The position numbers and the translations under genes were made by a program. From Acidobacteriota bacterium (GTDB lineage Bacteria > Acidobacteriota > Terriglobia > Acidiferrales > UBA7541), in assembly GCA_003224085.1 (NCBI GenBank), contig QHYK01000039.1, positions 1-64,000 on the forward strand: a DNA stretch of 64,000 bases, read 5' to 3'. Below, piece by piece: positions 5,284 to 49,611 of this stretch (the stretch's first letter is position 1; every line of letters begins with the position of its first letter). The notes below the pieces were generated by a model. The model searched no databases and was not told the origin of the DNA. It was given only the letters and a program-made list of their open reading frames with translations.

Positions 5284-5357
5284 TTTGAGGAACGAGCCAT
5301 CAGGCGTTTTTGTTTGACATGCTGCAATGCCCCGCCGAAGGACTGACTGAGAAGCAT

Positions 5358-6653
5358 ATGAACAAGCCACTCCTCTTTTTTCCTGCCGCTGTCTTGTTCT
5401 TCGCATCCCTTGCCGCCGCAGAACAAGGCAGCGCCCCTCATTCCGGAGCATGGTCTGGCGTCATTGTTTATAGCAGTTGCAACGCCGACGAAGCCTTCAA
5501 CGAGTCTCGCGAATGCTTTCTGAGCGCGCCGGGCGCCAAGCTTTCTCTGTACGACGATACCAGCCGTGTGATGTACGGGCTGGAGCCGCAGCAGCTCACT
5601 GCCGGTCACCTCGGAGACCCGGTGACCGTGCGCGGTGAGCTCGATGGCGACACCATTCGCGTGGCCTCCATTGAGCTGATGTCCATGGGCCTCGCAGTCG
5701 GCCAGAAAGCTCCCGCGTTTTCGCTGCACGATCAGTTTGGCGGGACCCAAACTCTCGATTCTCTGAAAGGGGCGAACGGCACGGTGCTTCTCTTTTTCCG
5801 CTCCGCGGACTGGTGACCGTTCTGCAAGGGACAACTGGTCGAGTTGCAAAGCACCATGTCGCGATTTGAGAAGCAACAGCTGAAGTTCGCAGCCATCAGC
5901 TATGATTCGGAAGAAATCCTTAAGTTTTTCTCAGATCGCCACAACATTACTTATCCCCTGCTTGCGGATCCGGACTCGAAGGCCATTCAGGCGTACGGCG
6001 TGCTGAACACCGAAGCAACCGGGATGCAAAAAGGGTTCGCGCGACCAGGATATTTCTTCATCGACACTAAGGGCGTTATTGAGGAAAAATTCTTCCAAGC
6101 CAAATACCGCGAGCGCCTTACCGGCAACGGCCTGATCGCCAAGCTATTTCCAGAGTTGGGGCAAGAGGTCACGGACACTATCGAAGCACCTCATCTTCGA
6201 GTGGCCCTGGAACAGTCCGACCGCACTGGAGTTCCCGGCACGCGGATCACTCTTGTTACGGAAGTGCGCCTGCCCCAAGACGTTCATGTGTATGCGCCGG
6301 GGACGCAAGGCTACAAGCCCATCAGGCTCGTGCTGGATGAAATGAGAGAGATGGAGTTCAAGCCCGCAACCTACCCGCCGTCCAAAATTCTCTATTTGCC
6401 GGCAATCAAGGAAAAAGTGCCCGTTTTCGAGGGAATGTTCCAAATCAGCCAAGACGTGAAAGTCAGTTCGGCGACGGAGTTTTGGGGCTCGCTGGGGAAA
6501 GCAGGAAAGACCTTCACGATTTCGGGTAAGCTCGAATACCAGGCTTGCGACAAGACGATCTGCTACCTGCCCACGTCCGTGCCGGTGAAATGGCAAATCC
6601 AGGTATTTCCCTTGGACCGCACGCGCGCGCCAGTGGAGATTCGCCACAAATAG
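5358..6653 (+). CDS. Predicted selenoprotein: secreted UxxC peroxiredoxin-like/DsbD-alpha fusion (in-frame TGA = Sec153)
   Basis: One 431-codon frame is interrupted only by TGA at 5814-5816 (codon 153). Residues 1-22 form a signal peptide. Residues about 30-108 resemble a small OB-like beta domain with two Cys (41, 53). Residues about 111-275 are an AhpC/TSA-type thioredoxin fold (GQKAPAFSLHDQFGG, LLFFRSADW, then TGA, then PFCKGQL), so the TGA replaces the first Cys of a CxxC and pairs with Cys156. Residues about 280-417 resemble the DsbD alpha domain (YQACDKTICYLP, Cys397 and Cys402). The frame and homology continue unbroken past the TGA, a hairpin follows it, and selA is in this window; together these support selenocysteine. 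Predicted periplasmic thiol redox or peroxide-reducing role. Alternative: a nonsense mutation, less likely given the exact position. Confidence 0.8.
5814..5851 (+). promoter_or_regulatory. Candidate bacterial SECIS element after the UGA codon
   Basis: Directly downstream of the TGA, TGCAA (5823-5827) can pair with TTGCA (5844-5848), and inside it GAC (5830-5832) can pair with GTC (5838-5840) around the loop AACTG (5833-5837). The apical loop begins about 17 bases after the TGA, within the range known for bacterial SECIS elements bound by SelB. The internal bulges (GG and GAG) make it imperfect. The loop lacks the G in its first two positions that is common in bacterial SECIS loops, so the exact fold is uncertain. 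It lies within the coding region, as is normal in bacteria. Confidence 0.5.
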
Positions 6654-48162: not shown

Positions 48163-49611
48163 ATGCCTGCCCGCACCAAGCGCGCGATTTCCGAGGAACA
48201 GGCGGAACTGCTGCGGCAGATTCCTTCGGTGGACGAATTACTGGCGCAACCGCGGCTGGCGGAGCTTTCTCAGCGTCTGGACCGCAATTTGGTTGTCGAG
48301 GTAGCGCGGACGGTGCTGGATGACTTGCGGGCGCGCATCACCGGGCGGATGGCTACCAACGTCCTTGCGGAAATCTCCCCGGTTGCCTGCGACCGCGCGT
48401 CGCTCGAAGAGCGCATCACGGCCCTGGTGGAGCAAGTTCTTGCGCGCTCGCTTTTGCCAGTGATCAACGCCACCGGGGTGATTTTGCACACGAACTTGGG
48501 GCGTGCGCCGCTGCCGGAAGGTGTAGTGCCGGAGTTTCGCAGCGTCGCGACGCAATATTCGAATCTGGAATACGACCTGGAAGCGGGGGTGCGAGGCAAG
48601 CGCGACGTGCACACGGCGGAGTTGTTGACGCGCCTTACCGGGGCCGAAGCAGCGATCGTGGTGAACAATGGCGCCGCGGCCGTGCTGGTGACGCTGGCGG
48701 CGCTGGCGCGTGGCGGCGAAGTGATTGTTTCGCGCGGAGAATTGATCGAGATTGGCGATGGCTTTCGGATTCCGGAGATCATGGAGCAGAGCGGCGCGGT
48801 GCTCCGCGAGATTGGAACCACGAACCGCACGCGGCTGGCGGATTATGAAAACGCGATCAACGAAAAAACGCGCTTGCTTCTGCGCGTGCATCCTTCGAAT
48901 TTCAAACTCACAGGATTCACGGAAAAGCCATCGCTCAAAGAGCTGGTGGCGCTAAGCCGACGCGCGCAGATTCCCCTGGTCGAAGATCTTGGTTCCGGCT
49001 GCCTGGTGGATTTGAAAGAGCACGGCATCACGGAGCCGACGGTGCGCCAGAGTGTAGAAGCTGGCGTGGGCATCGTGACGTTCAGCGGCGACAAACTTTT
49101 GGGCGGGCCGCAAGCAGGCATTATCGCCGGGAAGACAGATTTGATTACCCACGTGCGGCGGCATCCGCTGTTTCGCGCGCTGCGCGTGGACAAACTTACG
49201 ATTGCGGCGCTGGAAGTCACGCTCAGCGCTTATTTGCGCGCGGCTTGGGACGAAATTCCAGTGATGCGGATGATTCGAATGACGCCACAGGAATTGAAGC
49301 GCCGAGCGGAGAACTTCATCCGCGAGCTGCGGCCGGGGCTGCCGCCGGACGAAGTGGAGATCGAGGTTGTGGATGGGGCTTCGCTCGCAGGAGGCGGCTC
49401 GACGCCGGCGCAATCGCTGCCCAGCAAAGTGATTCGGATTGCCAGCGTCCGGTACTCCGCGGCAAAGCTGGAGCAGCGGCTGCGGCGCGCGCCTGCCGGC
49501 ATTTCCGTGATTGCGCGCGTGGAAGAAGACCGGCTCGTGCTCGATTTGCGCACGGTTTTTCCCGGGCAGGAGCTGCTGCTCGTCAAGGCACTGGCGGCCG
49601 CACTGCACTAG
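48163..49611 (+). CDS. selA: L-seryl-tRNA(Sec) selenium transferase SelA
   Basis: A 482-residue PLP enzyme that converts seryl-tRNA(Sec) to selenocysteyl-tRNA(Sec) using selenophosphate. The N-terminal tRNA-binding domain starts with LLRQIPSVDELLAQP; the core has VINATGVILHTNLGRAPL at about 100-117, a dense run at 164-178 (AIVVNNGAAAVLV), LIEIGDGFRIPEIM at 194-207, and the PLP lysine Lys311 in FSGDKLLGGPQAG. Length matches the family (E. coli 463). Genes for SelB, SelD and tRNA-Sec are not in the window. Its presence independently supports reading the TGA at 5814 as selenocysteine. Transcribed divergently from a conserved unknown gene. Confidence 0.96.
   Translation: MPARTKRAISEEQAELLRQIPSVDELLAQPRLAELSQRLDRNLVVEVARTVLDDLRARITGRMATNVLAEISPVACDRASLEERITALVEQVLARSLLPVINATGVILHTNLGRAPLPEGVVPEFRSVATQYSNLEYDLEAGVRGKRDVHTAELLTRLTGAEAAIVVNNGAAAVLVTLAALARGGEVIVSRGELIEIGDGFRIPEIMEQSGAVLREIGTTNRTRLADYENAINEKTRLLLRVHPSNFKLTGFTEKPSLKELVALSRRAQIPLVEDLGSGCLVDLKEHGITEPTVRQSVEAGVGIVTFSGDKLLGGPQAGIIAGKTDLITHVRRHPLFRALRVDKLTIAALEVTLSAYLRAAWDEIPVMRMIRMTPQELKRRAENFIRELRPGLPPDEVEIEVVDGASLAGGGSTPAQSLPSKVIRIASVRYSAAKLEQRLRRAPAGISVIARVEEDRLVLDLRTVFPGQELLLVKALAAALH

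Follow-up and report, generated by a model that had tools for sequence, protein, structure and literature searches.

An internal UGA codon in a gene of this acidobacterium is very probably read as selenocysteine (Sec), the product being a cell-envelope redox enzyme. The gene lies within the 64,000 nucleotides analysed here (referred to as the window). We consider it highly probable that it encodes an exported selenoprotein in which Sec153 is decoded by SelB with the help of a hairpin, and whose three redox domains would carry electrons by the route proposed below. We infer the insertion of Sec at position 153, the export and localisation of the chain, its electron flow and its substrate. The product is most likely a periplasmic seleno-thiol reductase that would be fed through its own DsbD-alpha domain.

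A redox gene interrupted by TGA

The frame at 5358–6653 of the forward strand runs from ATG to TAG, and its translation confirms what a first-pass annotation of the window had claimed, namely that it is open apart from a single TGA at 5814–5816. Read through, it gives a product of 431 residues containing SADW-U-PFCKGQL, with Sec as residue 153. The features of the gene, and one other gene of the window, are as follows.

5358–6653, forward strand: predicted selenoprotein gene of 431 codons with in-frame UGA and TAG stop (translation; lower dN 3' of the TGA)
5358–5420, forward strand: probable signal peptide, residues 1–21, MNKPLLFFPAAVLFFASLAAA (judged by eye; residues 1–25 form a low-confidence tail in the model)
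5421–5678, forward strand: DUF5818-like N-terminal domain with the pair C41/C53 (PF19135 below cut-off; Cys pair kept)
5691–6101, forward strand: domain of peroxiredoxin/AhpE fold, residues 112–248, with U153-P-F-C156 (Pfam AhpC-TSA; AhpE structures)
5814–5816, forward strand: UGA codon, predicted to be read as Sec153 (alignment with Cys homologues)
5832–5846, forward strand: candidate SECIS hairpin, stem CAACU/AGUUG, loop GGUCG (covariation in relatives and an excess independent of coding; weak in the window copy)
6189–6605, forward strand: DsbD-alpha-like domain with C397 (6546–6548) and C402 (6561–6563) (Pfam DsbD_N; fold match)
48163–49611, forward strand: selA, L-seryl-tRNA(Sec) selenium transferase (TIGR00474)

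The presence of selA in the same window, also noted in the first pass, is borne out by a TIGR00474 match of 561 bits at 48211–49596 of the forward strand (cut-off 267.9). At gathering level, Rfam finds two tRNAs across the window and nothing else.

Domain structure and proposed function

The chain contains exactly six Cys or Sec residues, arranged as three pairs with one in each domain (C41/C53, U153/C156 and C397/C402). Pfam AhpC-TSA (PF00578) matches residues 114–243 with 107 bits (cut-off 26), and DsbD_N matches residues 292–407 with 29.3 bits in the whole protein and 32.6 bits for the stretch alone (cut-off 25), while the N-terminal part reaches 20.7 bits with DUF5818 (PF19135), below the cut-off of 27. 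C41 and C53 are present in all 8 full-length rows of one alignment (A2), whose other rows begin past the N-terminal domain and hence fall outside this count; all 14 rows of another (A3) have C397 and C402.

The AlphaFold model of the protein has a mean pLDDT of 85.8. Its middle domain matches AhpE and other peroxiredoxins, with Z up to 20.6. Modelled alone, the C-terminal domain (pLDDT 90.1) has DsbD-alpha structures at Foldseek ranks 1–10 and superposes on 1vrs_C, of immunoglobulin-like fold, with Z 11.4 and rmsd 2.0 over 104 aligned residues. C397 and C402 align with both active Cys of E. coli DsbD-alpha, in an alignment of 17 columns with an hhalign probability of 13.6%, and a PDB sequence search with a profile of the DsbD-like domain found no chain.

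In the mechanism that we propose, SelB, guided by the hairpin 3' of the UGA, would deliver Sec-tRNA to codon 153, and the chain, once exported, would fold into three redox domains, each having its own Cys/Sec pair. A membrane carrier of the DsbD/CcdA type would reduce C397/C402 of the DsbD-alpha-like domain, this pair would reduce the selenenylsulfide between U153 and C156, and the U153 selenolate would then act on substrates in the envelope, reducing their disulfides or peroxides. The attack step would be faster with selenium, and Cys can take its place. A DsbD_TM-type frame of 293 residues lies on another contig, away from the gene, and is matched in two pieces of 31.5 and 28.3 bits (cut-off 27.1).

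The peroxiredoxin motif PxxxTxxC contains a catalytic Thr and the peroxidatic Cys. The first pass had described the site of the TGA as a UxxC catalytic site, and Sec is indeed the first residue of the pair, but the alignment with AhpE calls for a correction: it is C156 that falls at the Cys of TxxC, whereas U153 falls at the Thr and an Arg at the place of the Pro. The site is therefore of the CxxC type and not TxxU. This bears on a possible if rather unlikely role as a peroxidase, a Sec peroxiredoxin for which the DsbD-alpha domain would serve as reductant. The nearest solved structures, by sequence as well as fold, are after all the AhpE peroxiredoxins of M. tuberculosis; however, PxxxTxxC is lost, the Cys at the peroxidatic place is the second residue of UxxC, and ResA-type thiol-disulfide oxidoreductases match the protein too.

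The DsbD-alpha domain is part of the reducing branch, and its fusion to a redoxin of peroxiredoxin/ResA-like fold makes it improbable that the selenoprotein serves, in the manner of DsbA or DsbC, to oxidise or isomerise disulfides instead of reducing them. In favour of such a role, PMC13188914 lists selenoproteins of DsbA-like and DsbG-like type that also have UxxC pairs.

The TGA codon across genomes

In two whole-genome searches, 46 genomes proved to have TGA at this site and 7 to have Cys alone, a recurrence that marks the site as more than chance. Among 101 relatives (own genome included), 27 were matched at E 1e-30 or better, and those covering the site comprise 23 genomes with TGA and 3 with Cys only. 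The sample of the phylum gave matches at E 1e-45 or better in at least 29 of 396 genomes, a count that may be low as 4 candidates per genome were scored, and in at least 24 of 211 genera; after removal of genomes already counted, it contributed 23 further TGA genomes and 4 further Cys-only genomes. One genome that holds both forms (G212) was counted as TGA, another was omitted as its match does not cover the site (G025), and second copies in G380 and G411 lie outside the counts.

Over all examined locus rows the codon is TGA in 55, TGC in 47 and TGT in 34, and no other codon, Trp included, occurs at the site in any of them; this tally includes a Cys-rich homologue set and holds some genes or genomes twice. 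The search for that set used ADWCPFCK as part of its seed, which biases it towards Cys genes, and for this reason the genome counts were drawn only from the two whole-genome searches. The TGA thus aligns with the Cys codons of homologues, as the first pass had expected, and close relatives, in which it had held that truncations or random codons would tell against its reading, keep the TGA.

Coding constraint continues past the TGA. The dN is lower 3' of it than 5' in 21 of 23 compared rows, which include some genes held twice, and dN/dS on the 3' side is 0.04–0.14 in the 19 rows where it could be computed, these ratios being rough because dS exceeds 1 or is saturated in most rows.

The nearest named relatives of the protein are from Acidobacteria gp2 bins (80–82% identity), and the distribution of the gene in the Acidobacteriota is patchy. 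Plasmid records gave 66 partial matches, none spanning 80% of the query. No conserved gene neighbourhood was found: NagX-like and Met-gamma-lyase-like neighbours are confined to a few of the nearest relatives, and the one large cluster among the flanking frames, drawn from 16 loci, corresponds to the 5' portion of the selenoprotein gene itself.

A tree of 61 rows (49 TGA and 12 Cys, 6 identical rows having been dropped from 67) requires at least 8 changes between Sec and Cys; its root is arbitrary, so that the direction of change is unproven. Several Cys genes are nested among TGA genes, among them L041 with moderate support and L044 with 99/97, which suggests a change from Sec to Cys there.

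Some copies deserve separate mention. Degraded extra copies of the gene occur in G030 (L052, C356:48584–49185) and G019 (L053, C120:19329–19837); both adjoin a Met-gamma-lyase-like gene, and the latter also a NagX-like gene, as in the window. The genome with both forms carries a TGA and a Cys paralogue (L145 and L163 in G212), which make a natural pair for direct comparison. In two further genomes the match lies within open frames of 1106 codons (L144 in G167) and 918 codons (L156 in G348), which suggests longer fusions of the same redoxin. A copy on a contig labelled Formivibrio sp., a pseudomonadote, falls inside the acidobacterial clade (L058); this contig is probably mis-binned.

A hairpin downstream of the TGA

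The first pass had also pointed to a hairpin downstream of the TGA. It is convincing as a feature of the family, since it covaries and exceeds what coding demands, while the short hairpin of the window is the weakest link, being weak and non-significant when this copy is taken alone.

In the window, a 5 bp stem (CAACU/AGUUG) with a loop of 5 nt (GGUCG) lies 20 nt after the UGA. As described in PMC13188914, bacterial SECIS elements have a loop of 3–9 nt, a stem of 4–16 bp and a distance of 16–37 nt from the UGA, with a G within the first two loop positions. The window hairpin lies within these ranges for loop, stem and spacing, and its first loop base is G. The same source gives an energy guideline of −7.5 kcal/mol or lower and notes that the model fails to cover some genuine elements; the window hairpin, at −4.2 kcal/mol, misses this limit, and a longer stretch of the sequence favours a different fold. 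The limit is reached by 22 of 32 TGA rows with the 17-nt hairpin alone. Rfam has no match at the window hairpin.

The TGA genes can form a stem of 6–7 bp with an NGU loop, 17–33 nt after the U of the UGA. Across 26 distinct TGA sequences, 92.9% of 182 cells pair and changes on both sides are seen in 4 of 7 pairs, whereas sliding the hairpin partner as a control leaves 3.3–40.1% of cells paired. When the phylum set is added, pairing is found in 318 of 336 cells (48 distinct TGA sequences), compared with 275 of 539 in the Cys sequences (77 distinct), and at least 5 of the first 6 pairs are kept in 47 of the 48 TGA sequences but only 12 of the 77 Cys sequences. Among the 48, compensatory changes give G-C, C-G and U-A at the outer pair and G-C, A-U and G-U at the fourth. 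GGUC starts at index 23 from the U of the UGA in the window and in 26 of 32 TGA rows; it starts at index 21 in fdhF of E. coli K-12 and at two of three formate-dehydrogenase-like sites of the source genome.

Because the hairpin lies in coding sequence, synonymous codons were resampled as a test, with the codon usage of 9 window ORFs applied to every genome. The mean z was −2.66 for the 26 TGA sequences, with p <0.05 in 20 of them; for Cys sequences it was 0.0 (n=73), and +0.66 in 8 full-length-matched Cys genes. Of the 26 TGA sequences, 6 show no significant excess, the window copy (z −0.31, p 0.37) and its neighbour L055 (p 0.37) being two of them; these two have lost the outer pair.

Selenocysteine machinery

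The source genome (6.8 Mb, 159 contigs, 97.17% complete) carries a complete set of Sec genes. The first pass had named selB, selD and tRNA-Sec as genes to be sought, and had held that a lack of the machinery would speak against its reading; all of them were located. A profile search found SelB (353 bits) and SelD (344 bits) on other contigs, and these, like SelA, each exceed their own curated cut-off, while ARAGORN identified a tRNA-SeC with anticodon tca on contig 122.

Sec machinery and the TGA codon go together across genomes. SelA and SelB are both present in 39 of the 46 TGA genomes, with one of them in 6 and neither in 1; the 7 Cys-only genomes comprise 2 with both, 1 with one and 4 with neither. 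For the class with neither (1 of 46 versus 4 of 7) Fisher's test gives p 0.0006, a value that is uncorrected for kinship and could be affected by missing parts of draft assemblies. G039 and G051 belong to a single genus-level group (g5); the former has TGA with SelA and SelB, the latter Cys with neither found.

The association has exceptions on both sides. One genome with a TGA copy (L162 in G411), which is 93% complete, yielded neither SelA nor SelB, owing either to an assembly gap or to recent loss of the machinery. Conversely, Cys copies are present in two genomes that have SelA and SelB (L137 in G487 and L141 in G478), so the mere ability to make Sec is not sufficient to keep it. At the limits used, SelA was found in 89 of the 101 relatives and SelB likewise in 89, while the gene was unmatched in 74 of the 101 (E 1e-30), so that it cannot be the sole reason for keeping the machinery.

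In two genomes the gene has Sec genes nearby: selB-selA at about 0.8 kb (L038 in G039) and selB at about 2.5 kb (L032 in G014). At three other places in the source genome (L164, L165 and L168, on contigs 129, 75 and 152), a formate-dehydrogenase-alpha-like sequence has an in-frame TGA before His, in every case with a score below the cut-off of that family; two of the three have GGUC hairpin loops that resemble E. coli fdhF.

The selenoprotein reading of the in-frame TGA is thus strongly supported by the alignment with Cys, the covarying hairpin and the Sec machinery, and the first-pass interpretation stands. At the level of the protein, reading of the UGA as another amino acid (by a Trp, Cys or near-cognate tRNA) would be compatible with the data, but we regard it as very improbable: TGA is a normal stop within the window, the machinery of the genome is complete, the spacing of the hairpin is within the published range, 4 of the 7 Cys-only genomes lack both SelA and SelB, and a Trp codon was never seen at the site in the examined rows. 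A general reassignment of UGA was rejected, as 6 of 17 hand-picked window ORFs (the selenoprotein gene included) end in TGA, the others in TAG (9) and TAA (2). That the TGA is a true stop (in a pseudogene or between two genes) or a sequencing error is extremely unlikely and can be dismissed, for although a mechanical ORF list splits the frame into 5310–5816 and 5844–6653 and degraded extra copies exist in G019 and G030, 46 genomes share a TGA at precisely this codon and Cys codons are its only replacements, constraint continues behind the TGA, a break would cut the active-site motif, and TGA genes retain the hairpin whereas Cys genes do not.

Relation to known selenoproteins

The core of the predicted selenoprotein is of a known kind, as PMC13188914 lists both Prx-like UxxC and Redoxin families. 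The Prx-like thiol:disulfide oxidoreductase selenoproteins are described by PF00578 with UxxC or UxxU (PMC13188914, Table 1; PMC9312934), and the protein has both PF00578 and UxxC. As far as these descriptions go, it shares with them the AhpC-TSA domain, Sec as first residue of UxxC, Cys homologues and a SECIS element just downstream; it differs, when compared by description (exemplar WP_010940744.1), in being fused to DsbD-alpha-like and DUF5818-like domains. The Redoxin family selenoprotein (PF08534, UxxC; PMC13188914), and 'Prx-like 3' and its kin from the GOS data, Prx-like selenoproteins fused to unknown Cys-bearing domains (PMC2398784, PMC13188914), are likewise similar in having a UxxC redoxin and a fused Cys-bearing domain, the partner in 'Prx-like 3' being labelled Unknown_3. 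TsoB, a rhodanese/DsbD fusion-like selenoprotein (NF045694; PMC13188914), is another listed selenoprotein with DsbD-like parts, set apart by its description as rhodanese-like with UxxxxU. The protein scores 43.4 bits with NF040769 (SelL-related redox protein; 120 required), and none of the 11 curated NCBIfam models listed reaches its cut-off.

Among proteins without Sec, the 1-Cys peroxiredoxin AhpE (Rv2238c of M. tuberculosis) is the nearest solved structure in sequence and fold, but it has no fused domains and has TxxC instead of UxxC. The C-terminal domain resembles the DsbD alpha domain of E. coli and N. meningitidis and the N-terminal domain of ScsB in its fold and Cys pair. It differs in being part of a soluble fusion to a seleno-redoxin, where DsbD has a membrane domain, and in having C-x4-C instead of C-x5-C.

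Selenoproteins are not new in the Acidobacteriota, as 3 known ones were counted in one acidobacterium (PMC12013277). In open papers, taken without their supplements, our searches turned up no account of a fusion between a UxxC redoxin and a DsbD-alpha domain.

Biological implications

It is quite conceivable, though we advance the idea tentatively, that the gene encodes a seleno-redox relay of the envelope in a single chain (DsbD-alpha domain, UxxC redoxin and N-terminal Cys-pair domain) with a self-contained electron path, and that Sec, which may be ancestral in the Acidobacteriota, was swapped for Cys when the machinery was lost while the fused path was kept. If this idea is true, the gene would represent a distinct and so far unnamed selenoprotein subfamily. 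The covarying SECIS set, with its [N]GU loop and 48 distinct sequences, would be useful for detecting genes that are split by ORF callers. Paired TGA and Cys genes in genomes with and without SelA and SelB, such as G039 and G051, form a natural series on why Sec is kept or lost. With this protein, the envelope in the Acidobacteriota would gain a selenium-dependent redox chemistry, in a phylum for which the papers searched say little on selenoproteins.
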